A stretch of 64,000 bases of DNA, from positions 434,001 to 498,000 of the forward strand of contig NZ_CP047357.1 in NCBI RefSeq assembly GCF_030408835.1, given 5' to 3'. Position 1 is the stretch's first letter, and each line of letters opens with the position of its first letter. Positions 4,023 through 62,143 of this stretch are shown one piece after another. The position numbers and the translations under genes were made by a program. This stretch comes from Corynebacterium freneyi (GTDB lineage: Bacteria > Actinomycetota > Actinomycetes > Mycobacteriales > Mycobacteriaceae). The notes under the pieces are model-generated. The model saw only the letters and a list, made by a program, of their open reading frames with translations, did not search any database and was not told the DNA's origin.

Positions 4023-4033
4023 GCTTGACGACG
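4023..4033 (+). repeat. First copy of the dispersed 11-bp motif GCTTNRCGACG (25 copies in the window)
   Basis: Exact matches on the + strand start at 4023, 6926, 13174, 15208, 16535, 21855, 37202, 39783, 45851, 51204, 55615 and 61444. Matches on the - strand (read as CGTCGYNAAGC) start at 4171, 8991, 13293, 14194, 17920, 22732, 25082, 32737, 34555, 36241, 41166, 46041 and 55595. About twelve copies are intergenic (4023, 4171, 6926, 8991, 13174, 15208, 22732, 25082, 32737, 51204, 55595, 55615), several next to or inside terminator stems; the rest are in genes. I recognise no known element. Confidence 0.8.
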
Positions 4034-4084
4034 GCCGATGCACCCTCCCCTCACCGGGGCAGGGCGCATCGGCCGTCGCGTTTT
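4029..4084 (+). terminator. Rho-independent terminator after the esx pair
   Basis: A perfect 13-bp stem (CGACGGCCGATGC with GCATCGGCCGTCG, 24-base loop) is followed after two bases by TTTT. The left arm overlaps one copy of the dispersed GCTTNRCGACG motif. Confidence 0.85.
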
Positions 4085-4279
4085 GGTCTGGGCGGCCCGC
4101 ACCGGTAGGCTGAAACGCCTGTGTGCACCACTCTTCCCGCACGCACGACGACGCACGCCCGCAGGCGGGTCGTCGTCAAGCAAAAACGGGAAGCGACACC
4201 CCCGGGTCTCCACCGGCCGCCGGGGGCAGGGTACGCGGTGCGCGCCGGCCGGCAGAATCACACGGACCCGTAAGGAGTC
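4085..4279 (+). promoter_or_regulatory. rplM promoter and leader region
   Basis: No gene lies here. A TAGGCT hexamer at 4106-4111 is a plausible -10 box and would give a leader of about 160 bases. That leader contains a dispersed-motif copy at 4171 and a GC-rich hairpin (CCCCCGG paired with CCGGGGG, about 4199-4227). The rplM ribosome binding site AAGGAGT ends 2 bases before the ATG. A known L13 leader motif is not recognised. Confidence 0.4.
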
Positions 4280-4726
4280 ATGTTGCCTACTTTCCACCCC
4301 AAGGACGGTGACATCGAGCGCAAGTGGTACGTCATCGACGCCACTGACGTCGTGCTCGGTCGCCTCGCCACCCACGCCGCCGACCTGCTGCGCGGCAAGG
4401 GCAAGCCCTACTTCGCCCCCAACGTCGACTGCGGCGACCACGTCATCGTGATCAACGCCGACAAGGTCCACATCTCCTCCAACAAGCGGGACCGCGAGAT
4501 GCGCTACCGCCACTCCGGCTTCCCGGGCGGCCTGAAGTCGATGACCCTCGGCCGCTCCCTCGAGGTGCACCCCGAGCGCGTCATCGCCGAGGCCATCGAG
4601 GGCATGATGCCGCACAACAAGCTGTCGCGTCAGTCCATCAAGAAGCTTCACGTCTACGCCGGTGCGGAGCACCCCTTCGCCGGCCAGAAGCCCGAGAACT
4701 ACGAGATCAAGGCGGTGGCGCAGTGA
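4280..4726 (+). CDS. rplM: 50S ribosomal protein L13
   Basis: A 148-residue L13, an early-assembly protein of the large subunit that binds 23S rRNA. The family hallmarks KWYVIDA near the N-terminus, VLGRLAT, a [12 protein letters not shown] stretch and [14 protein letters not shown] sequence (here [10 protein letters not shown]) are all visible, and the length is normal. The start is the ATG at 4280 behind an AAGGAGT ribosome binding site. The gene overlaps rpsI by four bases (GTGA), the usual rplM-rpsI coupling. Base composition shows the strong C-ending codon preference of highly expressed genes here. Confidence 0.98.
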
Positions 4727-5286: not shown

Positions 5287-5394
5287 ACCGAAGCGTTCGC
5301 TTCCGCGGTGCCGCCGGTTCGCCGGTGGCCCGCAACGCAGCGGGAGGCCACGGTGCCGCATGGCGCCGGGCAGCGCCCGCCCGCGCTTTTCACG

Positions 5395-6907: not shown

Positions 6908-6929
6908 CTTTCCCCTTTCCTTTTTGCTT

Positions 6930-6968
6930 GACGACGTCCCGCGTGTTGGCGGGGCGTCGTCACGCTTT
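6930..6968 (+). terminator. Rho-independent terminator of glmM
   Basis: A 13-bp stem (GACGACGTCCCGC with GCGGGGCGTCGTC, one G-T pair) with a six-base loop, then ACGCTTTT. The left arm lies within a dispersed-motif copy. Confidence 0.85.
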
Positions 6969-8976: not shown

Positions 8977-9010
8977 CGGAAACCGGCGGGCGTCGCAAAG
9001 CAACGACGAA

Positions 9011-9044: not shown

Positions 9045-9058
9045 CGCAAACAAAAACG

Positions 9059-10025: not shown

Positions 10026-10032
10026 GTACGGC

Positions 10033-11982: not shown

Positions 11983-13107
11983 GTGAATGGCAACCATGGT
12001 TTCGGCGGGGGCCCGCGGAATTACGGCGGAGGGTTCAACGGAGGATTCAACGGGTCCTTCGGCGACGGGAACCGTAGTGGTTTCGGGGGCGGCGCAGGGG
12101 GCAACTCCTTCGGCGCACCGGGACCGGCCAGCGGGTTCGGGGGCGCTCCGGGGCCCGGTTTCCAGGGCTTTCCGACGCCGCCCCCGGCGCCGATGCCCGG
12201 GCCCCCGCAGAAGAACGGGGGAGGCAAGAAGGTCGCGATCGGAGCCGCCGCGGCCGCCGTCGTGGTGGCGTTGGTGGGGGCCGCGGCCCTGGCCTTTTCC
12301 GCCGGGGATGATTCGGCGAACGCCGACGGTGACCCCGGGGTCGATCAGGCGGGCGTGACCACGGAGGCCGTGCCCGACGGGGACGCGGGTTCGGGCAGCG
12401 GCGACGCGGAGGACTCGGCGAACATCGACTCGGAGGACGGGGCGGACATTCCCGAGTCCGACATCCCGGACGCGGACGACGATTCCGCGATCTTCCACGA
12501 CAGTGAGGAATGGCAATTCCTGTCGATGCCGGGGGCCGTCGTTCCGGGCGGCATCATCGTCAACGACACCGATGAGTCGAGTTGCTCGGTGGGGTACGTC
12601 GTGTCGACGGACAATCGGGACTTCGTGTTGACCGCGGGGCATTGCGGTGAGGAGGACGACCAGTTCTCCATCGTGGACGAAGACGGGTCATCGACGTACA
12701 TCGGTTCGATGGTCGAGTCGGAGTTTCTGACGGCCGGCGGCGCGGATTACGGGTTGATCGACATCACCCGCGCGCGACCGCATGTCCAGACGTTCCCGTT
12801 CGACGCGCCGTTGAAGGGATGGCGCGACGTGTCGTGGCTGGAGGAGAACAAGCCGAGGATTTGCCGGCTGGGTTTCCGCACCGGTTTGTCGTGCGGCGAG
12901 TATCTGGGCGTCGACGACAACGGGATCCTCAGTTTCCGCGGCATCGCCGACCACGGTGATTCGGGCGGCCCGGTGTTCGCCCAGACGGACGACGGCTTCT
13001 ACGCGGTCGGGCTGCAGTCCTACGGGCAGCCCGCCGACGCCACGCGGGTGTCGGCGATGACGATCGCCGAGCCCATGAACTTGTGGGGGCTGACGCTGTA
13101 CGCGTGA
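11983..13107 (+). CDS. Membrane-anchored trypsin-like serine protease
   Basis: A 374-residue type II membrane protein. A cytoplasmic Gly/Asn/Phe/Pro-rich tail (about 1-80) precedes KK and a hydrophobic helix at about 84-106. An acidic Asp/Glu/Ser-rich linker follows (107-180), then an S1 peptidase domain. The catalytic triad is visible as LTAGHC (His220), GGADYG (Asp255) and DHGDSGGP (Ser327). Cys201 and Cys221 flank the His loop and could form the usual disulfide, and Cys294/Cys304 could form another. The GTG start at 11983 has GAAGGAAA upstream; a longer in-frame start at 11926 lacks one. Extracytoplasmic proteolysis is expected; the substrate is unknown. The residue before the Ser loop gives no clear specificity. 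Confidence 0.88.
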   Translation: MNGNHGFGGGPRNYGGGFNGGFNGSFGDGNRSGFGGGAGGNSFGAPGPASGFGGAPGPGFQGFPTPPPAPMPGPPQKNGGGKKVAIGAAAAAVVVALVGAAALAFSAGDDSANADGDPGVDQAGVTTEAVPDGDAGSGSGDAEDSANIDSEDGADIPESDIPDADDDSAIFHDSEEWQFLSMPGAVVPGGIIVNDTDESSCSVGYVVSTDNRDFVLTAGHCGEEDDQFSIVDEDGSSTYIGSMVESEFLTAGGADYGLIDITRARPHVQTFPFDAPLKGWRDVSWLEENKPRICRLGFRTGLSCGEYLGVDDNGILSFRGIADHGDSGGPVFAQTDDGFYAVGLQSYGQPADATRVSAMTIAEPMNLWGLTLYA

Positions 13108-13185
13108 CGGTCGGCGTCGCCGTCGCGGCGATGCCGGTCGGCCGCGCCGTGCCTCGGCCCGTGTCGGGGCCGGTGCTTTACGACG

Positions 13186-15024
13186 TCAGCACGTGGACGG
13201 CACCCCGTCCTCCCGGTTGACCCACTGTTGGAGCGCATCGTGCACGGCATCGGCGTAGGCGGTGGCGCCGGTGAGGGTCGGGTGGATGAGGTCGTCGCGA
13301 AGCAGCGTCGTGTCGGCCGTCGCCGCCTGGCACCACTCGGCGCCGTAGACGTTGTCGTACTTCTTGGCGAAGTCGATGACCTGCTGCTTGGCTTCCGGCA
13401 TGTACCAGCGGTCGCCGTAGGGCATGACCAGGATGATGACGCGGTCCTCGCCGAGGAGGTCGACGATGTCCTCGAATTCGCCCTCGCGGGCCGCGCCGTT
13501 GGTGCCGAAGCCGAGGACCACGAACTGGTCCAGGGTGCCGGCGGCCTCCATGTTGGAGATGATCGTCGGCAGGGCCTCGTAGTGGCGCGACACCGCACCG
13601 TCGACGTAGATGCCGGGGAACTCCTCTTCCAGCGCCATGGAGCTGGCCAGCATCACGGAGTCGCCGATGGCGGTGATGCGGTCGCCCGTCGGCATCTTCC
13701 GCGTCGGCAGTTTCGGTGCGGCGGCCTGGGCGGCTTCCTGACGTTGGGCGAGGGCCTCGAGATCGGCCTCCAGGTTCTCGCCCGGACGCGCGCCACCGGT
13801 GACGGCGGCGGGCAGACCCATCAGCGCCACGGCGACGAGCACGACCGTCGCGCCGGCGAAGATCGTGCGGGGAGTGCCCGGGCCGGGGACCTCGTCGCGG
13901 CGGGCGCGGCGACGGGCGGCGCGCCACCGGCGGAACGGTTCGACGACGCCGTTGCGGCGGATCGGATCCTCCACGAGCGTCCACGACATCGCGGCCAGAA
14001 GGAAGGACAGCACGATGACCGCGGCGCCGCGGGCCAGCGGCATGTCGTCGAGCTCCTTCGGCAGGTACACCGTCACCGGCAGGTGCCACAGGTAGATGCC
14101 GTAGGAACGCTCGCCGATCCACCGCATCGGCGCGATGCCCAGCACCCGCGACACGAGCGTGCGCTGGTCGAGGATCGAGTAAATCGCGGCCATCGTCGCA
14201 AAGCTCAGGACCACCAGGCCGCCGCCGAAGAGGAACGGCGAATCATCGGGCATCACCGCGACGAGGACCACGATGACGGCGATGCCGACGAGTCCCGACG
14301 CTTCCGCGGGGAAGCGTTTGATCTCCGCCGTGCCGTTCCTGCGCACCAGCAGGATCGCCAGCAGCGCGCCGAGCAGCAGACCGCCGGCGCGGGTGTCGGT
14401 GCCCTCGTAGATGCGGGTGGCGTCGGCTCCGACGTTGGACAGGTGGGCCATCCAGGCGAAGCTCGCCGCGGCCAGCGCCAACGTCGCCCCGCCGATGAAC
14501 CATCTCGCCTTTCGCCGCCGCCCGAACAACGCGAACAGCAGCGCCAGCACCAGCGGCCAGACGAGGTAGAACTGCTCCTCGATGGACAGCGACCACATGT
14601 GGTCCAACGGGCCGGTCGACTCGAACTGGTCGAAATACGACTGCCCCTGGGCGATGACGTACCAGTTGTTGACGTACAGCAGCGAACTGATCGATTCGCC
14701 GACGCGGTCGCCGAGTTCCCCCGGCGTCGACAGCGCCGTGACCAGGAACACCGCCGCCACCGTGACCACCACGGCGGGCACGAGCCGCCGGAATCTGCGC
14801 AACCAGAAGGTGCTCAACCGGAAGGAATCGTGCCGGTACTTCGCGCGCAGCAGATTGGTGCTGATGAGGTAGCCCGACAGCGTGAAGAACACGGCCACGC
14901 CCAGCAGACCGCCCGGCGCCCACGAGGCGTCGAGGTGGTAGAACAGCACGGCCATCACGGCGATGGTCCGAAGGCCATCGAGCGCCGGGACGTAGGTGGT
15001 GCGGGAATCCACGGGTTTGGGCAT
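13186..15024 (-). CDS. Membrane O-acyltransferase (OafA/YrhL type) with SGNH-like periplasmic domain
   Basis: A 612-residue protein with the acyltransferase-3 fold at residues about 8-370 (YVPALDGLRTIAVMAV, then SLSIEEQFYLVWP and about ten membrane helices). After a final helix and an Arg-rich loop, an extracytoplasmic SGNH-hydrolase-like domain begins at about 455. It contains the block-I-like ITAIGDSVML and the block-V-like DLIHPT with the catalytic Asp/His pair. Such fusions transfer acetyl or other acyl groups onto cell-wall polysaccharide, lipids or peptidoglycan; the acceptor here is unknown. The ATG giving MPKPVDSRTTYVPALDG was chosen because AGGAG lies about 12 bases upstream. Two copies of the dispersed 11-bp motif fall inside the gene. 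Confidence 0.88.
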   Translation of the reverse strand: MPKPVDSRTTYVPALDGLRTIAVMAVLFYHLDASWAPGGLLGVAVFFTLSGYLISTNLLRAKYRHDSFRLSTFWLRRFRRLVPAVVVTVAAVFLVTALSTPGELGDRVGESISSLLYVNNWYVIAQGQSYFDQFESTGPLDHMWSLSIEEQFYLVWPLVLALLFALFGRRRKARWFIGGATLALAAASFAWMAHLSNVGADATRIYEGTDTRAGGLLLGALLAILLVRRNGTAEIKRFPAEASGLVGIAVIVVLVAVMPDDSPFLFGGGLVVLSFATMAAIYSILDQRTLVSRVLGIAPMRWIGERSYGIYLWHLPVTVYLPKELDDMPLARGAAVIVLSFLLAAMSWTLVEDPIRRNGVVEPFRRWRAARRRARRDEVPGPGTPRTIFAGATVVLVAVALMGLPAAVTGGARPGENLEADLEALAQRQEAAQAAAPKLPTRKMPTGDRITAIGDSVMLASSMALEEEFPGIYVDGAVSRHYEALPTIISNMEAAGTLDQFVVLGFGTNGAAREGEFEDIVDLLGEDRVIILVMPYGDRWYMPEAKQQVIDFAKKYDNVYGAEWCQAATADTTLLRDDLIHPTLTGATAYADAVHDALQQWVNREDGVPSTC

Positions 15025-15308
15025 GTGGCGAGGGCTCTCCTGGGGACGGACGAGGGACGGGGCACGGGGCCCGGAGCACGGCGCGGCGGGGCGCGCCCGA
15101 CCGATGGCCACCGCGCGATTGCAACATAGTCCCCTCCACCGCCGCGTCGGCGTTAGTCGCCGTCGGGCTTTCGCCGAATTTGGGGGTGGTGCATCTCGTC
15201 GGGCCCCGCTTGGCGACGGTCGGCGCCTGGATCCGCGACAGCCGGGTGGCGTCGTCGTCGCCGTGGTCGCCTCGGGCGTGAATCCGCGGCCGGACGTAGT
15301 CTCGGGTC
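15025..15308. promoter_or_regulatory. Divergent intergenic region, acyltransferase / nnr
   Basis: No gene recognised. TAGTCT at 15297-15302 is a -10 box six bases before the nnr ATG, giving a leaderless nnr mRNA. A GCTTGGCGACG copy of the dispersed motif lies at 15208. Nothing else stands out. Confidence 0.45.
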
Positions 15309-17189
15309 ATGGAAGCCGTCTTCACCGTCGACCAGATCCGCCGTGCCGAAGGGCCCCTGTTGAGGGCGCAGGATGAACCGGATGAATTGATGAGGCACGC
15401 GGCCAAGGCCGTCGCCGACGCGGCGAAGGTGATGCTCTCCGCCCCGAAACCGTATTTCCTGGGCCGCTACGCCACGCGCGTTCTGTTGCTGGTCGGCTCG
15501 GGCGGCAACGGCGGCGACGCCCTGTACGCGGGGTCGCTGTTGGCCGCCGAGGGCATCGGCGTCGACGCGGTGCTGCTGGGCGACGCCCCGCACGAGCGCG
15601 CGCTGGCCACGTTCCGCCGCCGCGGTGGGGCGGTGCTGGTCGACGGGTTGCCGGATTTCCCTGCGGGCCTGCGTGGCGACGGCAACCCCGAGCCGCTGGA
15701 TCCCGCGCACCCGGAGTCGGCGCGTCCGTGGGGGTATTGCCTGGTCATCGACGGCATCGTGGGGCTCGGGGGCACGGGGGCGCTGCGGGAGAAGGCGGCG
15801 CGGATCGTGCGGGTGGCGGCGAAGAACCACGCCCGTTTCCTGTCCATCGACGTCCCCTCGGGCGTGGCCGCGGATACGGGGGAGACCGTGCCGGGGGCGT
15901 CGATCCCGGACCCGCAGTGGGAGCCGGGGGATCCGGATGAGCCGTCGCCGCGCACGCTGGAATTGCCGGGCCACGTCACCGCCGATGTGACGGTGACGTT
16001 CGGCGGTCTGCGTTTCGCCCATGCGCTGTCGGACCAGTGCGGCGAGGTCGTGGTGGCGGACATCGCGCTCGACGGCGACGGCCCCGAGTTGCATCTGCTG
16101 CCGCGGGAGAAGTGGCCGGCGGGTGCGGAGGCCGGCCGCAGTCTGCATGGCCAGTTGCATCGGGATCTCGCCCGCGACGCCGCCGAGAGCACCACGGAGA
16201 CGTGGACGTATTACCGGTCGCTGGCGGTGCCGCCGCGCAATGCCTTCACGTGGCCGACGCTGTACGACGTCGATCCGGGTGACGTGTGGACCTCGGTCGG
16301 CGATCATCCGCGCCCGCCCCGCCCGGGTTTTCCGCGTGATCTGGAGCCGGGTGCCGAGGATGACAAGTACTCCGGCGGGGTCGTCGGCATCTGCGCGGGC
16401 GGTGACAGGTATCCGGGTGCGGGCGTGCTGGCGACCACGGCGGCGGTGCGGGCGACGTCCGCGATGGTCCGCTACGTCGGTGCCGTGTCGGCGGAGGTGG
16501 TGCGCGCGCTGCCGGAGGTGGTCGCGCATGCTTCGCTTGACGACGCCGGCCGGGTCGACGCGTGGGTGGTCGGTTCGGGCCGCGGCACCGATGATGCGGC
16601 GGCTGCGGAGTTGGCTGAGTTGTTGAGCCGTGACGAGCCCCTGCTCGTCGACGCCGACGCCATCACCCTGCTGGCGCGGCACCCGGAACTGAGGGAGAAG
16701 CTCGTGGCCCGCGAGGGGGAGACGTTGTTGACTCCGCACGCCGGGGAGTTCCGCCGTCTGTCCGATGCGATGGCGGAAGCGGGAGCCGAGGCGCTGCCCG
16801 ATCCCGCCGACCATCCGATCGGCGCCGCGAAGGCGATGGCCGTCGCCCTGGATTGTGCGGTGCTGCTCAAGGGCCGGCGCACCGTCGTGGCGATGCCGGC
16901 CGGGCACGGCCACCGCACGGGCACGGTGCGCATCATCGACGCGGGCACGTCGTGGGCGGCGACGCCCGGCAGCGGTGACGTGCTGTCCGGTCTGGTCGGG
17001 GCGTGGATGGCCAAGGACGGCATGGCGGGGATCGCGCCGGCGGTCACCGTCCACGCCCGGGCGGCCGAAGTCGCGGCCCGCACGCCGGCCGGGTATGCGC
17101 CGACGTCGGCGTCGCTCATCGCCGGGGCCATCCGGGAGGCCACTGCGGCACTGGCGGCGGAGACCGCGTGGCCGTCGGTGGCACAATGA
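15309..17189 (+). CDS. nnr: Bifunctional NAD(P)H-hydrate epimerase / ADP- or ATP-dependent dehydratase
   Basis: A 626-residue metabolite-repair enzyme that restores damaged NADH and NADPH hydrates. The YjeF_N epimerase domain occupies about residues 1-240, with GSGGNGGDALYAG and the VIDGIVGLGGTG segment. The carbohydrate-kinase-like dehydratase domain occupies about 350-620. It contains GVVGICAGGD, SALPEVV-like phrasing, LTPHAGEFRRL and the nucleotide-binding GSGDVLSGLVGAWMA. The two-domain fusion equals Rv3433c in layout. The TGA overlaps the ATG of alr (ATGA), indicating coupling. A near-consensus -10 box sits six bases before the ATG without a ribosome binding site. A region of about 90 residues between domains is longer than usual. 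Confidence 0.95.
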   Translation: MEAVFTVDQIRRAEGPLLRAQDEPDELMRHAAKAVADAAKVMLSAPKPYFLGRYATRVLLLVGSGGNGGDALYAGSLLAAEGIGVDAVLLGDAPHERALATFRRRGGAVLVDGLPDFPAGLRGDGNPEPLDPAHPESARPWGYCLVIDGIVGLGGTGALREKAARIVRVAAKNHARFLSIDVPSGVAADTGETVPGASIPDPQWEPGDPDEPSPRTLELPGHVTADVTVTFGGLRFAHALSDQCGEVVVADIALDGDGPELHLLPREKWPAGAEAGRSLHGQLHRDLARDAAESTTETWTYYRSLAVPPRNAFTWPTLYDVDPGDVWTSVGDHPRPPRPGFPRDLEPGAEDDKYSGGVVGICAGGDRYPGAGVLATTAAVRATSAMVRYVGAVSAEVVRALPEVVAHASLDDAGRVDAWVVGSGRGTDDAAAAELAELLSRDEPLLVDADAITLLARHPELREKLVAREGETLLTPHAGEFRRLSDAMAEAGAEALPDPADHPIGAAKAMAVALDCAVLLKGRRTVVAMPAGHGHRTGTVRIIDAGTSWAATPGSGDVLSGLVGAWMAKDGMAGIAPAVTVHARAAEVAARTPAGYAPTSASLIAGAIREATAALAAETAWPSVAQ

Positions 17190-18481
17190 CCGACATGAAC
17201 GCCGCACGAGGAGCGAACGCATCCGACGATCGGACACCATCCGGGAATCGGAATCCGTCGGACGAAGGGGCCGGCCCCGGGGAGACCGTCCCGTCCCCGG
17301 CCGATCCCACGTTTCCCGGGTTGCTCGTGCAGACGGTGGATCTTGCGGCGGTGCGCCACAACATCGGGACCATCAAGAAGGCGTCGGGCGCCCGGCGCCT
17401 GATGGCCGTGGTGAAGGCCGACGGTTACTCGCAGGGGGCCACCGAGGTCGCGGGCGCCGCGGTGCGGGCCGGCGCCGACCAACTCGGCGTGGCCACGCTC
17501 CAGGAGGCGCTGGACCTGCGCGAGTCGCTGGAGCTGCGCGGCACGTCGGCGATGATCCTGGCGTGGCTGTGGCACCCCGATGAGGCGCTGGAGCTGGAGG
17601 CGGCCGTGGCGTCGGGCATTCACCTGGGCGTGGCGTCGGAGGAGCACCTGGCCGCGGTCATCGCCGCCGGTCGCCGCGCCAACGTCCGCCCGACGGTCAC
17701 CGCCATGGCGGACACGGGGCTCAACCGCTCGGGCATCTCCGTCGTCGACGGCGCCTTCGAACGCGTCGCCGCCCGGTTCGGCGACGCCCACGCCCGCGGC
17801 GAAATCGACTGCACCGGCGTTTTCTCGCACCTGGCCTGCGCCGACGAGCCCGACAACCCCGCAAACGACATGCAGGCGGGGAGGTTCCGCGAGGCGGCGG
17901 CCATTCTGGAGAAGGCGGGCGTCGTCAAGCAACTCAACCACCTGTCCAACTCGCCGGGAGCGCTGACCCGCCCCGACCTGTCCTTCGACATGGTCCGCCC
18001 CGGCCTGTCCGTCTATGGCCTGGAACCGGTCGCCGGCCGCGCCCACGGACTGCGCCCGGTGATGCGGTGGGAGGCGCGCATCCCCGTGATCAAGGACGTC
18101 CCCGCCGGCGAGGCCGTCAGCTACGGGCGCACGTGGGTCGCCGAACGCGACACCCGGACGGCGATCATCCCATGCGGCTACGCCGACGGCATGCCGCGCT
18201 CGGCGTCGGGCAAGTTCGACGTCAGCATCAACGGGGTGCGCTACCCGCAGGTCGGGCGCGTGTGCATGGACCAGTTCGTCGTCGACCTCGGTCCCGACGC
18301 CCCGGTGCGGCCCGGCGACGTCGCCGTCATCGTGGGCACGCGCGAGGGCGAGCCGACCGCCGACGAACTCGCCGCGGCGGCGGGCACCATCAACTACGAG
18401 ATTCTGACGGCGCCGCGCGGCCGCACGCGCAGGCGGCACGTCGGGGTCGGCGAATCGGGGGCGGACCATGGCCGGACGTAG
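17186..18481 (+). CDS. alr: Alanine racemase
   Basis: A 431-residue PLP enzyme that interconverts L- and D-alanine for peptidoglycan. The PLP lysine is in MAVVKADGYSQG (Lys77), and the second catalytic residue, a tyrosine, is in AVSYGRTW. The fold-type III barrel signatures RPGLSVYGLEP and VGRVCMDQFVVDLG are present. The first 45 residues are a Ser/Pro/Asn-rich extension not needed for the fold. The ATG at 17186 was used because it overlaps the nnr stop; an in-frame ATG at 17195 is almost equivalent. The last 14 bases overlap the next gene. Clustering with tsaEBD and rimI is conserved in actinobacteria. Confidence 0.97.
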   Translation: MTDMNAARGANASDDRTPSGNRNPSDEGAGPGETVPSPADPTFPGLLVQTVDLAAVRHNIGTIKKASGARRLMAVVKADGYSQGATEVAGAAVRAGADQLGVATLQEALDLRESLELRGTSAMILAWLWHPDEALELEAAVASGIHLGVASEEHLAAVIAAGRRANVRPTVTAMADTGLNRSGISVVDGAFERVAARFGDAHARGEIDCTGVFSHLACADEPDNPANDMQAGRFREAAAILEKAGVVKQLNHLSNSPGALTRPDLSFDMVRPGLSVYGLEPVAGRAHGLRPVMRWEARIPVIKDVPAGEAVSYGRTWVAERDTRTAIIPCGYADGMPRSASGKFDVSINGVRYPQVGRVCMDQFVVDLGPDAPVRPGDVAVIVGTREGEPTADELAAAAGTINYEILTAPRGRTRRRHVGVGESGADHGRT

Positions 18482-19550
18482 TCGTGGCGCGGTCGGGGCG
18501 GGGCGGTCCGGCGGGCGGGGCGGCATTCCCGGGTGGGGGATCGTCGCCGGCGCCGGTGCGCTGGCCACCGCGGCCGGCGCGGGCGTCATCGGCTGGCGCG
18601 AGCACTGGCTCGCCCGCAACGCCGCGACCGTCCCGCCCGAGCTGCTGACGCTGGGCGATGCCACCTGGTCGGGGACGGTGACCTCGTCGGACGGCCTCGA
18701 CCTGTGCGTCGTCGAGCGCGGATTCCAGACCGCCCCGGTGACCATCGTGTTCACCCACGGGTACTGCCAGCGCAAGGATTCGTGGTGCCTGCTGTCGCAT
18801 CAGTTCCGCAAGAGCTTCGGCGATGATGTGCGGTTGCTGTTCTGGGATCAGCGCGGCCACGGCGATTCCGGCGACCCAGAGGCCGAGGCCTGCACCATCG
18901 GCCACACGGCCGATGATTTGGCGTGCATCATCCGCGAGCGCGTCCCGGCCGGGCGCATTTTCCTGGTCGGGCATTCGATGGGCGGCATGACCGTGATGTC
19001 CTTCGCCCGCCGACACCCGGAGTTGATGGAGCGGGTGTCGGGAGTGGCGCTGCTGGCCACGGCGTCGGCGGGGCTGTCCAAGGGCGGCATTCCGCAGATG
19101 ATGCTCGGGCCCGTCGGCCAGGCGCTGACGAAGACCGCGAAGTCGTTGCCCCAGTTGGCCAACCAGGTCCGGCAGTTGGCGACGGTGGGGGAGATGCCCC
19201 TCATCCGCGGCGCTTCCTTCGGGGATCAGCGGACGCCGCGTGCGATCGTGAAACTCAACGAGAAGATGATCGACGATACGCACGCCACGACGATCTTCAA
19301 TTTCTTCGGCGCGTTGCAGCTTCACGACGAGTCGGAGGGCGTCGCCGCGTTGGAGGGCCATCCCGGCGTGGTCATCGCCGGCGACAAGGATCGGATGATC
19401 CCGTACGAGCGGGCGGTGGACATCATCGAGGGCTGGCCCGGCGCCCGCCTGGTGAGGGTGCCCGGCGCCGGCCACATGGTGCAGCTGGAGCAGCCGAAGC
19501 TGGTCGGCGGGGCCATCGAGACCCTCGTCCGCGAGAACTGGCCGGTGTAG
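18468..19550 (+). CDS. Alpha/beta hydrolase with N-terminal membrane segment
   Basis: A 360-residue hydrolase of unknown substrate that lies in the alr-tsa cluster. An Arg/Gly-rich start leads to a hydrophobic segment at about residues 22-42 (VAGAGALATAAGAGVIGW), which may act as a signal anchor. The hydrolase core shows HGYCQRKDSW (oxyanion region), DQRGHGDS, the nucleophile elbow VGHSMGGM, an acidic residue at VIAGDKDRMI and the final His in PGAGHMVQLEQP, so a complete triad is present. The ATG overlaps the alr coding end by 14 bases. A lipase, thioesterase or peptidase-like role is possible; nothing in the sequence decides. Confidence 0.88.
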   Translation: MAGRSRGAVGAGRSGGRGGIPGWGIVAGAGALATAAGAGVIGWREHWLARNAATVPPELLTLGDATWSGTVTSSDGLDLCVVERGFQTAPVTIVFTHGYCQRKDSWCLLSHQFRKSFGDDVRLLFWDQRGHGDSGDPEAEACTIGHTADDLACIIRERVPAGRIFLVGHSMGGMTVMSFARRHPELMERVSGVALLATASAGLSKGGIPQMMLGPVGQALTKTAKSLPQLANQVRQLATVGEMPLIRGASFGDQRTPRAIVKLNEKMIDDTHATTIFNFFGALQLHDESEGVAALEGHPGVVIAGDKDRMIPYERAVDIIEGWPGARLVRVPGAGHMVQLEQPKLVGGAIETLVRENWPV

Positions 19551-22739: not shown

Positions 22740-22831
22740 AGCAAACCCCGCACGCCCCGCCCGCCTCGGCGGGGCGCGGCCGCCCGCACCGGCCGCGACC
22801 GTACGCGCGGCCCGCACCCTCCAAGGTTGAG

Positions 22832-24995: not shown

Positions 24996-25123
24996 CGTTT
25001 CGGTGCCGCAGCGTGATGTTTCGGTGCTGCGGTGCGGCCCGGGTGCGAGGCGTGACCCGGGTGGGATGCCCGCCCCGTGGTCGTCGCAAAGCCAACGAAG
25101 CCGGGCCGGCCCGAACCCGGGCC

Positions 25124-27980: not shown

Positions 27981-29568
<1,588 letters not shown>

Positions 29569-32713: not shown

Positions 32714-32805
32714 CGGTGGACGGGCGACGCGGCGGGCGTCGTAAAGCATGAAGCCGACGCGAAGCCGGGGGCGGAGCCGAAAAGGGCCCGCCCCCGCACG
32801 TGCGC

Positions 32806-43112: not shown

Positions 43113-46100
43113 ATGAGCGTGTGGAGGGGTTTCGCGGGCGGCGTCGGTGATGGGGTCAATGATGGGATCGGTGGTGGAGTCGGCGACGGGGCCGGTGGTG
43201 CCGCCGGTGCCGGTGCGGGCTCTCGTGCCGGGGGGCCTTTGAGCTGGTCGAGAATCGAACGGATCTTGTCCGGGAGATCGGTGGGGACGTTGACTCCCGG
43301 GTACGGCTTCAACGGGCATCGTCGGGGCGGAGGCCGGGGAAGTGGTGTCGTCGGCGGGGGTGGCCGCGTCGATGGTCCCGCGAATGTCTGGGCGAATGTC
43401 CGATCGAATGGCGCATCGGATGGCGTCGGCGGCGATGTGTCCGTCGGCGTCGTCGGCCTAGTCGGCGGCGTCGACCTGCATTGCCGGACCAGCTACTCCT
43501 TCCTGCACGGGGCGTCCGACCCGGCCGATTTGGTGGACGAAGCGGTGCGGTTGGGGCTGCGGGCGCTGGGCATCGCCGATCGTGACGGGCTCTACGGGGT
43601 CGCCCGGTTCGCGGAGGCCGCGGCGGAGGCGGGACTGGACACGATCATCGGGGCGGAGCTGTCGCTGCCGCGGGCGCCGTTGACGGTGCTGGCGCGCGGG
43701 CCGGAGGGGTACCGGCGGCTCAGCCGCGTCATCAACGACGCCCTCATGTCCGGCGGGAAGAAGGGGGTGGCCCGCTACCCGGCGCTGCCGGAATTGGCGC
43801 AGGCCGCCGACGGGTACTGGCAGGTGCTCGCCGACGTCGCCTGGCTGCCGCATCTCGGGGAGCTGGTCGCGGCGTTCGGCCCGGACGACGTGGCGGTGGA
43901 CCATCACGTCGACCCGACCCCGGGCGCCGCCGACGACCAGCGCGATCTCGCCGCCGCGGCGGCCGAACACGGACTTCGGCAGGTGGCCGGCGCCGCGGCG
44001 ACGGCGGCGACTCCGGCGGATGCGCGGGTGGCCGGGGCGAAGCATGCGCTGGCGCAGCGCGAATCCCTCGACGACCATGAACCGAAGCTGCCGCCGACCG
44101 GGGGATCGTGGCTGCGGTCCAGCGCCGAGTTGGAGGCCATCTTCGGGCACCTGCCCGGCGTGCTGGACGCCACGGCGCAGGTGGCGGCGGAATGCGCGTT
44201 CACGCTGGACCTCATCGCGCCGAACCTGCCGGCCTGGGACGTTCCCGAAGGCCACGACGAGTCTTCATGGTTGGCCCACATCGCCCGCGCCGGGGCGTTG
44301 CGACGCTACGGGCCGGCCGAGGGGCTGGACGCCGACGCGACCGGAGCATCCGACGAGGGCGGGGGAGGTGCGCCGACCGTCGTCACGCAAGCCTGGAAGC
44401 AGCTGGAACGCGAACTCGACGTGATCGGGGAACTGGGCTTTCCGGGGTATTTCCTCATCGTCCACGACATCTGCGAATTCTGCCGACGCGAGAACATCCT
44501 GGCGCAGGGACGCGGCTCGGCGGCGAACTCGGTGGTGTGCTTCGCCCTGGGCATCACCAACGTCGACCCCATTGCGGCGGGGCTGCTGTTCGAACGGTTC
44601 CTGTCGCCCGAACGCGACGGCCCGCCCGACATCGACCTGGACATCGAATCCGGGCGGCGCGAGGAGGTCATCCAGTACGTCTACCGGCGCTACGGCCGCG
44701 ACAACGCCGCGCAGGTGGCCAACGTGATCACCTACCGGCGACGCGGGGCGCTGCGCGACGCCGCCCGGGCACTGGGGCACGCGCCGGGCGTCGTCGACGC
44801 GTGGGTCAACGGGACCGCGCAGCCGCCCGAGCAGGTCACCGCACTCGCCGAACGGTTGCTCGGGCAACCCCGACACCTGGGCATCCACTCCGGCGGCATG
44901 GTCATCTGCGACCGGCCCATCGCCGACGTCGTGCCCGTGGAATGGGCGCGGATGGAAAACCGGTCCGTGGTGCAGTGGGACAAGGACGACTGCGCGGCCG
45001 CCGGACTGGTGAAGTTCGACCTGCTGGGGCTGGGCATGCTCGAGGCGATCCACCACTGCATCGACCTGGTCGCCGAACACCGAGGGCGGACCGTGCGGCT
45101 GTGGGAGATCGACGTGGCCGAAAAAGCCGTCTACGACATGCTGTCGCGTGCCGACGCCGTCGGAGTGTTCCAGGTCGAATCGCGCGCGCAGCTGGCCACG
45201 CTGCCCAGGCTGCGGCCGCGGGAATTCTTCGACCTGGTCGTCGAGGTGGCGCTGATCCGCCCCGGCCCCATCCAGGGCGGCAGCGTCCACCCGTACATCC
45301 GGCGACGCAACGGGCTCGAACCGGTGACCTACGACCACCCGGTGCTGGAAAAATCGCTGGGCAAAACCCTGGGCATCCCCCTGTTCCAGGAACAGCTCAT
45401 GCAGATCGCCGTCGACGCCGCCGGGTTCACCGGGGCGGAAGCCGACTCGCTGCGCCGGGCGATGGGCGCCAAACGCTCCGTGGAGCGGATGGAGGCGCTG
45501 CGCACCCGGTTCCTCGACGGGCTGCGACGGACCAACGGCATCGTCGGCGACGTCGCGGACCGGCTGTGGAACAAGATCGTCGCCTTCGCCGCCTACGGGT
45601 TCCCCGAATCGCACGCCCAGTCCTTCGCGTCGCTGGTGTACTTCTCGGCGTGGTTCAAATACCACTACCCGGCGGAGTTCTGCGTCGCCTTGCTGCGGGC
45701 GCAGCCGATGGGCTTCTACTCGCCGCAGTCGCTGGTCGCCGACGCCCGCCGCCACGGAGTCGGGTGCGACGGCCCGGACGTCAACGTCTCCGGCGTCGAG
45801 GCGGACTGCCCGGGCGGGCGGATCCGGCTGGGTCTGGGGTCGGTGGCGGGGCTTGGCGACGACGCCGCCCGACGCATCGTCGACGCCCGGGACCGCTGCG
45901 GCGCGGAGGCCGACGAGGCCGGCCTTTTCCGTGGCGGACCTTTTCGCGACGTCGCCGACCTGGCGCGACGAGCGTCGCTCGACGTCTCCCACGTGGAGGC
46001 CCTGGCCCGGGCGGGGGCGCTGGAATGCCTGGGGATGGACCGTCGTCAAGCACTGTGGGCCGCCGGCATCGCGGCGACCGAACACGAGGGCATGCTGCCC

Positions 46101-48899: not shown

Positions 48900-49604
48900 G
48901 TGACCGACACCCCCAGCGCAGGCGCCCCCGGGATCGGTGCGACCGAAGCCAACGCGTCAACGCCCGACGCCGATGCCCCTGCTTCGTCTCCGTATTGCCA
49001 CGTTCTCTTCGCCAGCCCGCAGATTCCGCCGAACACGGGCAACGCGATCCGCATGTGCGCGGGCACGGGGGCGGCGCTCCATCTGGCGGAGCCGCTGGGA
49101 TTCAACTTCGAGGAGCGCCACGTCCGCCGCGCCGGTCTCGACTACCACGATCTGGCCGAGGTTCACGTCCACCCTTCGTTGGACGTTGCGCTGACGCAGC
49201 TGGTGGGGCCGGTTTCTCTGCTTGCCGACGGTGAGGGGCCGTCCGCCGGTGGCGCTCGGAACGACGGCGACGGACTGCCTGAAGGGGACGCGCGGAACGC
49301 GGGTGACGGGCTGCCCGACGGTGCGGACCGGGAATCCGGGGCCGTTGGCGCGCGTCCGCGGGTGTTCGCGTTCACGGCGCACGCGGAGAAGTGGCACGTT
49401 GACGTGGACTACCGCCCGGGTGACGTGCTGCTGTTCGGCCCCGAGCCGACGGGTCTGTCCGACGAGGCGCTGGCCGACCCGAGGGTGACGGATCTGATTC
49501 GCATCCCGATGATCCCGGGGCGGCGCAGCATGAACCTGTCCAACGCGGCGGCGGTGGCGGCGTACGAGGCGTGGCGGCAGATGGGGTTCCCCGGCGGGCA
49601 TTAG
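48900..49604 (+). CDS. trmL: tRNA (cytidine/uridine-34-2'-O)-methyltransferase TrmL
   Basis: A 234-residue SPOUT methyltransferase that 2'-O-methylates the wobble base of certain tRNA-Leu. The trefoil knot signatures are FASPQIPPNTGNAIRMCAGTG, LLFGPEPTGLSDEAL and IPMIPGRRSMNLSNAAAV. An insertion of about 40 residues splits the middle (residues about 104-143) and is made of Gly/Asp-rich repeats reading ARNDGDGLPEGD and ARNAGDGLPDGA. The GTG start follows TACGCT by eight bases; the leading 25 residues are Ala/Ser/Pro-rich. Insert and extension make it longer than the usual 155 residues. Confidence 0.87.
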   Translation: MTDTPSAGAPGIGATEANASTPDADAPASSPYCHVLFASPQIPPNTGNAIRMCAGTGAALHLAEPLGFNFEERHVRRAGLDYHDLAEVHVHPSLDVALTQLVGPVSLLADGEGPSAGGARNDGDGLPEGDARNAGDGLPDGADRESGAVGARPRVFAFTAHAEKWHVDVDYRPGDVLLFGPEPTGLSDEALADPRVTDLIRIPMIPGRRSMNLSNAAAVAAYEAWRQMGFPGGH

Positions 49605-50342: not shown

Positions 50343-51197
50343 ATGACGGCGACGAAGCTTGACGGCAAGATGTACCGCGACGAGATCTTCGAGGATCTGG
50401 CCACGCGGGTGACGAAGTTGAAGGAAGCCGGCGTGACGCCGGGCTTGGCGACGGTCCTGGTCGGCGATGATCCGGGCAGCCATTCCTACGTGAAGATGAA
50501 GCACCGCGATTGCGAGCAGATCGGCATTTCCTCGATTCGCCGCGATCTGCCGGCGGAGACGACGCAGGAGGAGTTGGAGGCGGTCATCGCCGAGCTCAAC
50601 GCCGACGATGCCTGCACGGGGTACATCGTGCAGTTGCCGTTGCCGAAGCACTTGGACGAGAACCGTATTTTGGGGCTCATCGATCCGGAGAAGGATGCCG
50701 ATGGTCTGCATCCGGTGAATTTGGGCAAGTTGGTGCTCAATGAGCCGGCGCCGTTGCCGTGTACGCCGAATGGTTGCATTCATTTGCTGCGTCGTTTCGG
50801 CGTGGAGTTGGCGGGCGCGAAGGTGTGCGTCATCGGTCGCGGTGTGACGGTCGGTCGGCCGATTGGTTTGATGCTGACGCGCCGCAGCGAGAATTCCACG
50901 GTGACGCTGTGTCACACGGGGACGAAGGATCTGGCGGCGGAGACGCGGCAGGCGGATGTGGTCATCGCGGCGGCGGGCAAGGCGCACATGCTGACGGCGG
51001 ACATGGTCAAGCCGGGTGCGGCGGTGCTTGATGTGGGGGTGTCGCGTTTGGACGGCAAGTTGGCCGGCGACGTGCATCCGGATGTGTGGGAGGTTGCGGG
51101 CGCGGTGTCTCCGAATCCGGGTGGCGTTGGTCCGCTCACGCGTGCGTTCCTGGTGCGCAATGTGGTCGAGCGCGCCGAGCGCTTGGCGGGTCTGTAG
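50343..51197 (+). CDS. folD: Bifunctional methylenetetrahydrofolate dehydrogenase / cyclohydrolase
   Basis: A 284-residue FolD that interconverts methylene-, methenyl- and 10-formyl-THF with NADP. Hallmarks are [23 protein letters not shown] with the catalytic Lys, [12 protein letters not shown], the [13 protein letters not shown] stretch and [11 protein letters not shown]. The nucleotide-binding [16 protein letters not shown] and TVTLCHTGT follow. The terminal [11 protein letters not shown] is complete. It provides one-carbon units for purine and methionine synthesis. Placement ahead of the DUF3017 gene and metX matches mycobacteria. Confidence 0.97.
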
Positions 51198-51205
51198 GGG
51201 TTGGC

Positions 51206-51634
51206 TTGACGACGCCGCCGCGCCCCCGTCGTTCGCCGCACCTTCCGGAAGGGGGCGCGGGGCGTTTCGGCGGGCGTGAAATCGCGGAGCGGGCGAGTCG
51301 TGATGATTTGCCCGATCCGATGGTGAATCCTCATTCGCCGGAGGGGCCTGCGCGGGGGGAGGCGTGGCCGGAGCGCGTCCGGTGGTTGTTGTACGGGGGC
51401 CTGTTTTTCGGCCTCGGCGCTGCGGCGGTGTTTCTCGGGCTGGAGCGGTGGCGGCGGGCGACGTTCATGCTCGGGGTGACCATGATGTATTTGGGCGTCA
51501 TCCGTCAGTTTTTGCCCGATTCGCTGTTGGGTGTGTTCAGCGTCCGGTCGATGAAGTTCGACCTGTGGTTCTGTCTCCTCGTCGGTGGCGGCATGGTGTT
51601 TTTGGCCAGCTCGGTCGACGCGTTGGGGAGCTAG
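51206..51634 (+). CDS. DUF3017 membrane protein
   Basis: A protein of about 142 residues with three hydrophobic segments (RWLLYGGLFFGLGAAAVFLGL, FMLGVTMMYLGVI and LWFCLLVGGGMVFLAS). These helix lengths and spacing resemble DUF3017 proteins next to folD. Function unknown. The N-terminal 40 residues are Pro/Arg-rich and not predicted to fold. I placed the start at the TTG five bases after AGGGG; the ATG at 51320 gives a 104-residue protein without the tail and is a real alternative. A dispersed-motif copy overlaps the TTG. The stop overlaps the metX stop (CTAG). Confidence 0.72.
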   Translation: MTTPPRPRRSPHLPEGGAGRFGGREIAERASRDDLPDPMVNPHSPEGPARGEAWPERVRWLLYGGLFFGLGAAAVFLGLERWRRATFMLGVTMMYLGVIRQFLPDSLLGVFSVRSMKFDLWFCLLVGGGMVFLASSVDALGS

Positions 51635-52743: not shown

Positions 52744-52750
52744 CGAAATC

Positions 52751-55594: not shown

Positions 55595-55625
55595 CGTCGT
55601 CAAGCAGTGCCCCTGCTTTGCGACG
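55595..55625. repeat. Inverted pair of the dispersed 11-bp motif
   Basis: CGTCGTCAAGC and GCTTTGCGACG face each other across nine bases (AGTGCCCCT), forming a hairpin between the metY promoter region and the icd terminator. Confidence 0.72.
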
Positions 55626-55686: not shown

Positions 55687-57909
<2,223 letters not shown>

Positions 57910-59610: not shown

Positions 59611-59818
59611 GCGGGTCCTTTCCGGGGTTTTTCGTCGACCGCCGGGGCACGGTGCTCCGGAGGCATTGCACGATTTTTCACGATAACCAACCCGCAGGGC
59701 ATCCGCTATGATGACCGACTTCTTCCGGGTGGACCCATAACCTGCGGCTTCGTCGCCCGGACCAGCACTTTGACCGTATCGGTCACCCACGTTCGAGCAC
59801 CCGCACCCGGGAGGATCA

Positions 59819-61096
59819 TTGCCCAAGATCGTTCATCGACAGTCATTCTCGTCACACCGGCGGCCCGTGCCCCGCCAGGACGACGTGTCCGACGCGCGCC
59901 GCAATTGGGTCATCGCGGCCCTGTCGGTGGGTGCCTTCGGCATCGGCGTCACCGAATTCGTCGCCATGGGTTTGCTGCCGTACATCGCCGCGGACTTCGG
60001 ACGCAGCGAGGCGGAGTCCGGGGCGGTCATCTCCATGTACGCCCTCGGCGTCGTCGTCGGCGCCCCGCTGATCACGGTGCTGACCGGGTCCGTGCCGCGA
60101 CGCAGAATGCTCCTGCTGCTGATGGCGGCCTTCACCATCGGCAACGGCGCGACCGTGTGGGCGGGGTCGCTGGGGTCCTTCGGTGCGGTCATGGCCTCCC
60201 GCTTCATCGCCGGCATTCCCCACGGCGCGTACTTCTCGGTCGCCGCCCTCGTCGCGGCGTCGCTGGCCGCGCCGGGCAAACGCGGCCGCGCCGTCGCCCT
60301 GTCCGGGATGGGCCTGTCCGTGGCCACCGTCGCCGGCGTTCCCGCAGCGCAGGCGCTGGGCCAGCATTACGGCTGGCGGTCCGCGTTCGTGCTCGTCGCC
60401 GCCATCGGCGTCGCGGCGCTGGTGTCGCTGTGGTTCGCGGTGCCGCACATGAACCGCATGCCCGCCACCCGTCCGCTGGAGGAACTCGGCGCCCTGGCGA
60501 CCCCGCAGGTGTGGTTCACCGTCGCCATCGGCACGGTGGGTTTCGGCGGCATGTTCGCCGTGTACACGTACATCACGTGGACCATGACGGAGGTCGGCGG
60601 TCTGGCAGAGACGCTCATGTGGCTGGTGCTCATGGCCTACGGCGTGGGCATGGTCGCGGGCACGTACCTCGGCGGCTGGGTAAGCGACCGGGTGGGCGAC
60701 ATGGGCCTGCTGTGGACGCTCATCGCGATGGCGGTCGCCCTGGTCGCGTTTTTCTTCACGGCGCCGCTGGGCTGGCCGGCGGTGATCAACTTCGGCGTGA
60801 TCGGCATGCTCGGTTCGACGCTGGTGCCCAACCTGCAGACCCGCCTGATGGACGTCGCCGGTCGCGCCCAGACTCTCGCCGCCGCGTTGAATCAGGCGGC
60901 CCTCAACATGGCCAATGCGGGTGGTGCGGCCATCGGCGGCGCCGTCATCGCCGCGGGCTTCGGCTACCGGGCCCCGGCGTTGGCGGGTGCGGCCATGGCC
61001 GTCGCCGCGATTCTGGTGTGGGCCCCGGCGGCGTGGCTGCGGGCCCGGTCCCGACGGTCCGGGGCGGACCGGGACAAGGCCGTCCTGCAGGCCTGA
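59819..61096 (+). CDS. MFS transporter (drug/sugar efflux type)
   Basis: A 425-residue major facilitator with about twelve membrane helices. The start of TM1 reads VGAFGIGVTEFVAMGLLPYIA, typical of the AraJ/NepI/Cmx efflux group. The A-motif analogue lies in the TM2-3 loop (TGSVPRRRMLLL), and the TM5 motif region has GVPAAQALGQHYGWRSAFVL. Substrates may be antibiotics or sugars; the sequence does not decide. The TTG has GGGAGG six bases upstream. A basic N-terminal 25 residues precede the first helix. No regulator gene is adjacent. Confidence 0.87.
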   Translation: MPKIVHRQSFSSHRRPVPRQDDVSDARRNWVIAALSVGAFGIGVTEFVAMGLLPYIAADFGRSEAESGAVISMYALGVVVGAPLITVLTGSVPRRRMLLLLMAAFTIGNGATVWAGSLGSFGAVMASRFIAGIPHGAYFSVAALVAASLAAPGKRGRAVALSGMGLSVATVAGVPAAQALGQHYGWRSAFVLVAAIGVAALVSLWFAVPHMNRMPATRPLEELGALATPQVWFTVAIGTVGFGGMFAVYTYITWTMTEVGGLAETLMWLVLMAYGVGMVAGTYLGGWVSDRVGDMGLLWTLIAMAVALVAFFFTAPLGWPAVINFGVIGMLGSTLVPNLQTRLMDVAGRAQTLAAALNQAALNMANAGGAAIGGAVIAAGFGYRAPALAGAAMAVAAILVWAPAAWLRARSRRSGADRDKAVLQA

Positions 61097-61186
61097 CCCC
61101 GGACCCGCCTCCCGGCGCCGTTGGCCGCTGCGGCGGGACGCGGGCCGTCGTCACGCGGATCCGGGCTGGGAAGTAGGCTGCCGGGC

Positions 61187-62143
61187 ATGCCGCTCACCAT
61201 CGCAACCATCAACGTCAACGGCATCCGCGCAGCCGTGAAGAAGCGCCACGAGGACAACCCGGGCATGCTGCCCTGGCTGGAGGACACCTCCGCCGACGTG
61301 GTGTTGCTGCAGGAGGTCCGCGCCACCGACGATCAGGCCCGTGCGGCTCTGGCCCCGGCCCTGGAAGCGGGATGGCACTGGATCGGCGCGGAAAACGAGC
61401 TGGCCAAGGGGCGCGCGGGGGTGGGCATCCTGTCGCGGGCGGAGCTTGACGACGTCCGCGTGGGGTTCGGTTCCGACGAGTTCGACCGGATGGGCCGCTA
61501 CGTGTCGGGCGTGTTGCGTGCCGGGGATTCCGGAATCGCCGAGGACGTGCTCATCGCCAGCCTCTACCTGCCGTCGGGATCGGCGAAGACGGAGAAGCAG
61601 GACGAGAAGTACCGGTTCCTCGACGCGTTTTCCGGCCACCTCGCCGAGCTGGGGGCGGCGGGCCGGGAGGGCGCGCACGCCGTCATCGGCGGCGACTGGA
61701 ACATCTGCCACCGCGAGCAGGACCTGAAGAATTGGCGCACCAACCGCACCAAGTCCGGGTTCCTGCCGCAGGAGCGGGCGTGGATGGACTCCGTTTTCGG
61801 CACCTTCCCCGACGAGGCGCCGCAGGACACCCGACTCAACGCGTCGGCCCGCGAACTCGCCGCCGGCGTCTTCACCGACGGGTCGGAGTGGACCCCGCCC
61901 GCGGTCAACGCCGACCCCGACTGGTTCGACGTCACCCGCCGCCTGCACCCCGACGCCGACGGCCCGTGGTCGTGGTGGACCTACCGCGGCCAGGCGTTCG
62001 ACACCGACGCGGGATGGCGCATCGACTACCAGGCCGCGACGAAGCCGATGCTCGACCGCGCCGTGTCGTCCGTCGTGGACAAGCCGTCGGCCTACGACCG
62101 GCGGTGGACCGACCACGCGCCGGTCATCGTCGAATACCGCTAG
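61187..62143 (+). CDS. xthA: Exodeoxyribonuclease III (apurinic/apyrimidinic endonuclease)
   Basis: A 318-residue EEP-family nuclease for base-excision repair. Motifs are IATINVNGIRAA, LLQEVRATDDQ with the catalytic Glu, SLYLPSG, the GGDWNICHREQD with Asp-x-Asn, FDVTRRLHPDADGPWSWWTYRG and SDHAP-like WTDHAPVIVEY with the final His. It is longer than E. coli XthA by about 50 residues, mostly in loops. TAGGCT ends seven bases before the ATG and suggests a leaderless mRNA. It is convergent with the following membrane protein gene. Confidence 0.95.
   Translation: MPLTIATINVNGIRAAVKKRHEDNPGMLPWLEDTSADVVLLQEVRATDDQARAALAPALEAGWHWIGAENELAKGRAGVGILSRAELDDVRVGFGSDEFDRMGRYVSGVLRAGDSGIAEDVLIASLYLPSGSAKTEKQDEKYRFLDAFSGHLAELGAAGREGAHAVIGGDWNICHREQDLKNWRTNRTKSGFLPQERAWMDSVFGTFPDEAPQDTRLNASARELAAGVFTDGSEWTPPAVNADPDWFDVTRRLHPDADGPWSWWTYRGQAFDTDAGWRIDYQAATKPMLDRAVSSVVDKPSAYDRRWTDHAPVIVEYR

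Follow-up and report, generated by a model that had tools for sequence, protein, structure and literature searches.

A stretch of 64,000 nucleotides from the genome of Corynebacterium freneyi (NZ_CP047357.1, positions 434,001 to 498,000), called the window here, carries a dispersed 11-bp motif, GCTTNRCGACG, and raises the question of what purpose such a word might serve. An earlier note on this DNA had counted 25 exact copies, 12 and 13 on the two strands, and had named as candidates a transformation uptake sequence, a site for a nucleoid or terminator-associated protein, a recombination or methylation motif and a mobile repeat. The motif is real, its true number being 28 with 14 copies on each strand, and the chance level of about one match claimed for the window is borne out by dinucleotide shuffles (n = 100; mean 0.91, maximum 3). 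In its genomic distribution it bears the marks of a DNA uptake sequence (DUS), the first of those candidates. We infer from the sequences that its core, GCTTNNCGACG, quite probably serves corynebacteria in natural transformation, labelling self DNA across the genome.

The genome is a single contig of 2,880,330 bp with dnaA as its first gene, from base 52 at the contig start. The motif is found in it 558 times on the forward and 550 times on the reverse strand, 1,108 in all and far over expectation, against 33 + 35 = 68 for the same pattern read backwards. Further statistics for this genome come from 444 or 464 kb out of 2.88 Mb, with locus L020 excluded for its overlap with the window, and genes were called with our own simple Markov caller. 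In 464 kb there are 308 copies of GCTTNNCGACG, where 300 permutations of its nine fixed letters averaged 6.5 copies and never exceeded 56. A k-mer scan made with no prior motif and a third-order Markov model (444 kb, the basis of all figures for this genome below unless stated otherwise) returned GCTTGACGACG (89 copies, 1.5 expected), GCTTTACGACG (38, 0.12 expected) and GCTTTGCGACG (33, 0.21 expected) among its top four 11-mers, the remaining one being GCTTGACGACG shifted by one base. The purine first assigned to position 6 proved too narrow, as 50 C and 45 T stand there besides 146 A and 51 G; the core is therefore written as GCTTNNCGACG, C and T being over-represented too. Position 6 can be any base with A preferred, while A is almost absent from position 5, which takes G, T or C. 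At seven of the nine fixed positions no base change leaves more than 15 copies, compared with 197 intact ones; the two T positions are looser, with as many as 41 and 50. T is favoured directly before the motif, and C is favoured two bases past its end; once the base preceding the 11-mer and the two following it are passed, the information falls below 0.2 bit. With next to nothing conserved beyond about 14 bp, the motif is not a transposon or repeat family, which excludes the mobile-repeat candidate.

Written as GCTTBNCGACG, the motif has 290 copies, or about one per 1.5 kb, with 9–18 in each of 20 sampled 20-kb stretches and 34 in the window, where GCTTNNCGACG also has 34 copies, none with A at position 5. 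The copies are spaced more evenly than random (coefficient of variation 0.83). By gene calls, 16 of the 28 motif copies in the window are fully genic, 11 are in spacers and one is at a gene edge. Spacers make up 12.8% of the window; the earlier note had put them at about a tenth, holding roughly half of the copies. A facing pair at 55595–55625 and a copy over the stop codon of tsaD (TIGR03723, 21591–22739) are both present as the earlier note described. Enrichment is found in genes and spacers alike: the 193 genic copies compare with a mean of 29.2 (maximum 41) in 20 runs of synonymous codon shuffling within genes, and the 95 spacer copies with 1.0 (maximum 3) in 50 runs of a first-order Markov model, an enrichment of about 93-fold, so that the motif does not simply track coding codon pairs. 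One codon phase takes 167 of the 193 genic copies, 115 in the sense of the gene and 52 opposite. Neighbouring copies within 80 bp are in inverted orientation in 15 of 18 pairs, some of which flank or form the stems of terminator-like hairpins. Density peaks between convergent genes at 2.13 copies per kb, the figures compared with it being 1.25 and 1.32, and a stop codon is the nearest gene end for 53 of 82 spacer copies. A strand preference by replication arm was looked for and none was significant, either by local GC skew (160:146, p 0.46) or by chromosome half (167:139, p 0.12).

The motif is widespread in the genus, with dozens to over a thousand copies in most of the 201 Corynebacterium genomes examined, which are a sample from a larger genus. 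Its density is bimodal, 131 genomes having at least 30 copies per Mb and a trough of two genomes lying at 15–20 per Mb. Named motif-rich species, represented by one locus each, have 4.0–9.8 copies per 10 kb and include C. vitaeruminis, C. haemomassiliense, C. tuberculostearicum, C. striatum, C. minutissimum, C. aurimucosum, C. lubricantis and C. pollutisoli. In other families of the order the motif does not exceed its reversed control in 22 of 24 genomes, the exceptions being G041 (46 against 41) and G044 (98 against 61), and 49 loci from outside Corynebacterium (980 kb) hold 14 core copies, or 0.14 per 10 kb.

A second form of the word, GCTTNNCGATG, differs by one base, having T in place of C, and reaches 625–1,337 copies in 11 of the 201 species. 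In 100 kb of one genome (G168) this T form occurs 52 times and GCTTNNCGACG not at all. With NR at positions 5 and 6, the C form stands at background in ten of the eleven T-dialect species (2.3–16.4 per Mb; median of the reversed control 13.2 per Mb), and the eleventh (G167) has both dialects, with 1,337 copies of the T form and 158 of the C form. Neither form is present in 48 genomes (below 20 per Mb for GCTTNRCGACG and below 40 per Mb for the T form), and a further 12 are intermediate between classes. In 100 kb each of four motif-free genomes (G010, G014, G028, G171) a k-mer scan gave no word of comparable strength. A third dialect, GCTTNNTGATG, had been hinted at by C. macginleyi and is not supported within the sample of 201 genomes, none of which has more than 111 copies; the highest counts are in the T-dialect genomes G177 and G118, and the variant doubles as a negative control. 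Among the T-dialect genomes, G077 (L110–L114) has a longer form, GCTTGCCGATGCC, together with part-words, CTTGCCGATGCC being found 15 times against 0.04 expected, as if the recognised word had been extended rightward.

Dialect labels cluster on a tree of the helicase linked to the Tad locus. This tree has 56 rows, from 21 of 24 Tad loci of the G genomes, 30 of 31 named Corynebacterium loci and five of the 49 outgroup loci; those left out were G188 (incomplete), G195 and G184 (duplicate records of C. phocae and C. meridianum) and L148 (too short). Counting only well-supported branches, the T label must have changed at least twice; the best tree needs four changes. One clade of seven rows has full support. 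Inside it, the four T rows, C. macginleyi among them, make up a group that is itself fully supported, and the rest, C. tuberculostearicum and two relatives, have the C form (support 92/72). Orthologous loci of 22 kb from the two sides of this clade, L150 (C) and L154 (T), are about 79% identical, and 11 of their copies fall in matching alignment columns. Ten of these carry C as the dialect base in L150 and T in L154, and the eleventh has T in every row; the T form is also present in two relatives within the C group, at one or two additional sites. A second set that does not overlap the first, G006 (T) with G133 (C) at 80.4% identity, has the C/T difference at ten of ten shared copies. This comparison covers 25.7 kb alignable out of about 196–200 kb, a small part because gene order differs. 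Both sister-clade sets combined, 20 of 21 shared copies have kept their place and switched the dialect base. Some two thirds of the copies have thus kept their position, with one base rewritten in concert genome-wide. Biased replacement, driven by something that reads the word, explains this switch in place, which a local function of each copy does not. The C. macginleyi locus (L153) itself has the C form once and TGATG for CGATG at four orthologous copies, which could be decay or a private dialect.

GCTTNRCGACG is missing from the plasmid-like stretches examined. Small contigs with a plasmid-type replicase (PF03090) were taken as plasmid-like, plasmid status being judged from replicase and contig size, and gave 15 stretches, 231 kb in total, from eight C-dialect species; five of the twelve contigs were covered in part, and L255 and L256 (1 kb each) were unused. 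GCTTNRCGACG occurs on these stretches 0 times against 19.0 expected at the hosts' own densities (P 5.6e-9).

A DUS of this kind would be bound on free DNA by a receptor at the cell surface, which is probably one of the minor pilins of the Tad/Flp pilus, and the pilus together with ComEA/ComEC would import the bound DNA. Recombination of the imported pieces would swap chromosomal alleles for motif-bearing ones, and repeated biased import could both create and maintain the copies. If the preference of the receptor shifted by one base, the same drive would convert copies in place and give rise to a new dialect. Genes for such machinery are present in C. freneyi, where a Tad/Flp locus (209,810–214,904) adjoins a DEAH helicase and codes for a CpaE-like protein (TIGR03815, slightly below cut-off), TadA (TIGR03819), two T2SSF proteins, a small pilin-like DUF4244 protein, a TadE-family minor pilin (NF041390) and a TadF-like protein (TIGR03816). 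A ComEC match is found in 201 of 201 genomes of the genus, a TadA-type ATPase in 192 over cut-off (198 at E 0.001) and a TadF-like protein in 193 over cut-off (200 at E 0.01), while ComEA was found in all nine loci tested, motif present or not, by tblastn with two ComEA queries from the same loci. In another actinobacterium, Micrococcus luteus, transformation is served by Flp/Tad pilus genes (PMC4322843).

As receptor, the TadF-like protein is a candidate only, suggested by divergence between dialects. It is the most diverged Tad protein compared between the sister groups, with 68% identity between dialects and 93–96% among three T strains, the other values between sister groups being 79–83% for TadE, 91–92% for a TadC-like fragment, 84–86% for TadA and 73–74% for the CpaE-like protein. 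Two further genes of the same loci are equally diverged (about 61% and 73%), and between G006 and G133 ComEA (73%) and ComEC (77%) come close to the TadF-like divergence. The TadF-like protein of C. macginleyi is the most diverged within its clade, at 82% identity to the T strains. Neither form of the word is present in 15 of 25 genomes with a weak TadF-like score, hand-picked as E above 1e-16, compared with 33 of the other 176 (p 3.5e-5); this is a lead and nothing firmer, owing to shared ancestry and to the fact that many of these genomes are diverged in TadA too. In G097 the T-dialect count is down to 213 and the TadF-like match is very weak (E 4.2e-4), so that this genome may have lost its receptor and its motif copies may then have eroded.

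Several observations weigh against the motif being an uptake sequence of this kind. Natural transformation in Corynebacterium gave no report in the open-access literature searched, so that competence is assumed here. The uptake genes are present also in species with neither dialect, and their presence therefore does not explain the distribution of the motif; gene presence or absence was rejected as its cause, these genes being near-universal. The nine genomes without TadA over cut-off include motif-rich drafts such as G137 and G021, weak matches being found in G137, G021 and G125. Among the matches listed, that of ComEC is split in G001, G136 and G138 and has a stop in G219; the motif-rich three of these four have 493, 118 and 212 motif copies, and G219 has 42. 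Such splits and stops might reflect recent loss of uptake or assembly faults. Alignments of the Flp pilin (45 of 51 rows) and TadE (37 of 51), inspected by eye, revealed no residue tracking dialect, and a regular expression recovered TadF from just three of the 51 rows. In the sister-clade comparisons, five of the 15 C copies of L150 are without a counterpart in L154 (one of them in unaligned DNA), and eight of 18 aligned sites of the G006/G133 set are present in one genome only. The plasmid-like contigs are lower in G+C (0.51–0.64), and the looser GCTTNNCGACG occurs on them seven times, the outgroup rate predicting about 3.3. As for terminators, scanning the initial 20 kb of the window with a consensus gave six terminator-like sites against 6.5 in shuffles, which is no excess.

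Other explanations have to be set against the same evidence. Chi-like signals are short, over-represented and species-variable, and one read by an end-resecting helicase-nuclease of the AdnAB or RecBCD type, sparing self DNA or promoting its recombination, would fit the abundance, the dialects and the scarcity on plasmid-like DNA. Such signals are normally oriented with replication, however, and any polar recombination or segregation motif, such as one of KOPS type, would be expected to show a strand bias; the motif has none that is significant, and neither its strong enrichment in spacers nor its inverted pairs would be expected of Chi, which makes this explanation improbable. We hold as equally improbable a binding site for a genome-wide nucleoid or chromosome-organising protein. 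It would account for the even spread over both strands and is compatible with the scarcity on plasmid-like contigs, but there is no obvious cause for about a thousand sites to change the same base together, and plasmids lacking the motif in the same cell are hard to explain.

A label for methylation or restriction, in which a modification enzyme marks self DNA at the motif, is very unlikely, although a changed recognition domain would fit dialects one base apart and the contrast between self and foreign DNA. Genomes tend to avoid restriction sites, not to accumulate them, and a two-part GCTT-N2-CGACG site does not have a usual Type I spacing. The least likely explanation, with scarcely any chance in our judgement, is that there is no label at all and that terminator hairpins, mobile repeats or codon-pair bias produce the copies. 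The inverted pairs flanking terminator-like stems, the peak between convergent genes and the codon-phase preference speak for it, but it is already contradicted by the counts: a terminator-associated site is unable to explain the 193 genic copies among 290, a mobile repeat would extend beyond about 14 bp, and synonymous shuffling accounts for 29 of the 193 in genes while spacers are so strongly enriched. On this evidence an uptake sequence is favoured; the other candidates of the earlier note fit worse.

The copies in the window are collected in Table 1.

Table 1. Copies of the motif GCTTNRCGACG and of the wider core in the window, from exact pattern matches and gene calls.
Feature	Position	Strand	Location	Remark
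Core copy GCTTGTCGACG	282..292	-	genic	beyond the purine first assigned to position 6
Core copy GCTTTTCGACG	864..874	+	genic	beyond the purine first assigned to position 6
Motif copy	4023..4033	+	intergenic	
Motif copy	4171..4181	-	intergenic	
Motif copy	6926..6936	+	intergenic	overlaps terminator-like hairpin 6929-6962
Motif copy	8991..9001	-	intergenic	convergent genes
Core copy GCTTTCCGACG	12167..12177	+	intergenic	
Motif copy	13175..13185	+	intergenic	adjoins the 3' end of a gene
Motif copy	13293..13303	-	genic	
Motif copy	14194..14204	-	genic	
Motif copy	15208..15218	+	intergenic	
Motif copy	16535..16545	+	genic	
Motif copy	17920..17930	-	genic	
Motif copy	19319..19329	+	genic	
Motif copy	21027..21037	-	within tsaB-family gene	
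Motif copy	21855..21865	+	within tsaD	
Motif copy	22732..22742	-		spans tsaD stop codon
Motif copy	25082..25092	-	intergenic	convergent genes
Core copy GCTTGCCGACG	28782..28792	+	within IMP dehydrogenase gene	
Motif copy	32737..32747	-	intergenic	
Motif copy	34555..34565	-	genic	
Core copy GCTTCTCGACG	35995..36005	+	genic	
Motif copy	36241..36251	-	genic	
Motif copy	37202..37212	+	genic	
Motif copy	39783..39793	+	genic	
Motif copy	41166..41176	-	genic	
Motif copy	45851..45861	+	within error-prone DNA polymerase gene	
Motif copy	46041..46051	-	within error-prone DNA polymerase gene	
Core copy GCTTGCCGACG	49220..49230	+	genic	
Motif copy	50443..50453	+	genic	
Motif copy	51204..51214	+	intergenic	stop codon 6 bp before
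Motif copy	55595..55605	-		inverted pair, left arm
Motif copy	55615..55625	+		inverted pair, right arm
Motif copy	61444..61454	+	genic	

Three other words were seen in passing. In the C. freneyi genome, a 12-bp word, AAACCACGGGGT, forms two intergenic clusters of direct and inverted copies (L024:10693-10940 and L029:12525-13195, at about C1:1,018,700 and C1:1,740,530), which contain all of its 15 exact copies in 464 kb and are possibly operators or a repeat array. G199 (L090-L091) has a second over-represented word, TTCGGGGTGGG, with seven copies against 0.04 expected in 39 kb, and in G118 (L105-L109) the palindrome TGAGCTCA is over-represented, with 26 copies against 4.6 in 100 kb.

To our knowledge, uptake sequences have been described in two proteobacterial families only. 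No description of such a motif in Corynebacterium was found in the open-access literature, in agreement with the earlier note, which had known of no equivalent in the genus, and a text search of papers for the exact motif listed matches that were all unrelated. A fuller account, which we put forward tentatively and rate as somewhat less than an even prospect, is that corynebacteria have an independent code for uptake of self DNA, the first beyond the Neisseriaceae and Pasteurellaceae, with a minor pilin of the Tad/Flp pilus as its reader (the best guess being the Rv3654c/TadF-like protein). According to this account, a one-base change in receptor preference would have rewritten about a thousand copies largely in place, the dialect would have changed at least twice, and related commensals would have been split into gene-exchange groups. 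Were this so, a third and unrelated code, in another phylum and with another type of pilus, would mean that self-labelled uptake evolves repeatedly, and most Corynebacterium species, common human commensals included, would be naturally transformable or recently have been so. Dialects would then decide the partners in gene exchange, and adding the right word to DNA would offer a practical genetic route. Sister clades one base apart at orthologous copies make the origin and switching of such words, by biased-uptake drive or by selection, directly testable.

Known systems resemble the corynebacterial motif to different degrees. Chi sites are likewise over-represented recombination words that differ among groups, unlike the motif in that the latter lacks a significant orientation bias. 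The Flp/Tad transformation system of Micrococcus luteus has Tad genes including TadE/TadF, the same gene types as those found here; it differs in that the term "uptake sequence" is absent from the main text of the paper describing it (PMC4322843). Among the DUS and their counterparts, the uptake signal sequences (USS), the features described include abundance, strand symmetry, use of spacers and hairpins, phylogenetic dialects, a species that carries two of them, others that carry none and scarcity in mobile DNA (PMC3630211, PMC3868556, PMC7371117, PMC1852404, PMC13020248). Terminator surveys, one of 343 prokaryotes and one of thousands of genomes, describe such words in the terminators of Neisseriaceae and Pasteurellaceae, and the main text of neither mentions Corynebacterium. 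The USS of the Pasteurellaceae (AAGTGCGGT, with a variant in H. ducreyi) is unrelated in sequence and phylum and is similar in having about nine fixed bases, copies on both strands that number at least in the many hundreds, and pairs in terminators (PMC1852404); a minor pilin, PpdA/ComN, is its predicted receptor (PMC12616744), whereas the comparisons made here identified no receptor. The DUS of the Neisseriaceae (GCCGTCTGAA and its dialects, receptor ComP) is again unrelated in sequence and belongs to a different phylum, the corynebacterial copy number not exceeding the lower end of the range in the Neisseriaceae, and it is served by a type IVa pilus with ComP, whereas Corynebacterium has Tad/Flp pilus genes. 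In other respects the two are alike: both are words of about 10 bp in about a thousand to several thousand copies, both have inverted pairs, in terminators there (PMC1852404) and around terminator-like stems here, and both have dialects a few bases apart that follow the species tree, with some relatives lacking the word and with a genome of two dialects, Simonsiella muelleri in the Neisseriaceae (PMC3630211) and G167 here.

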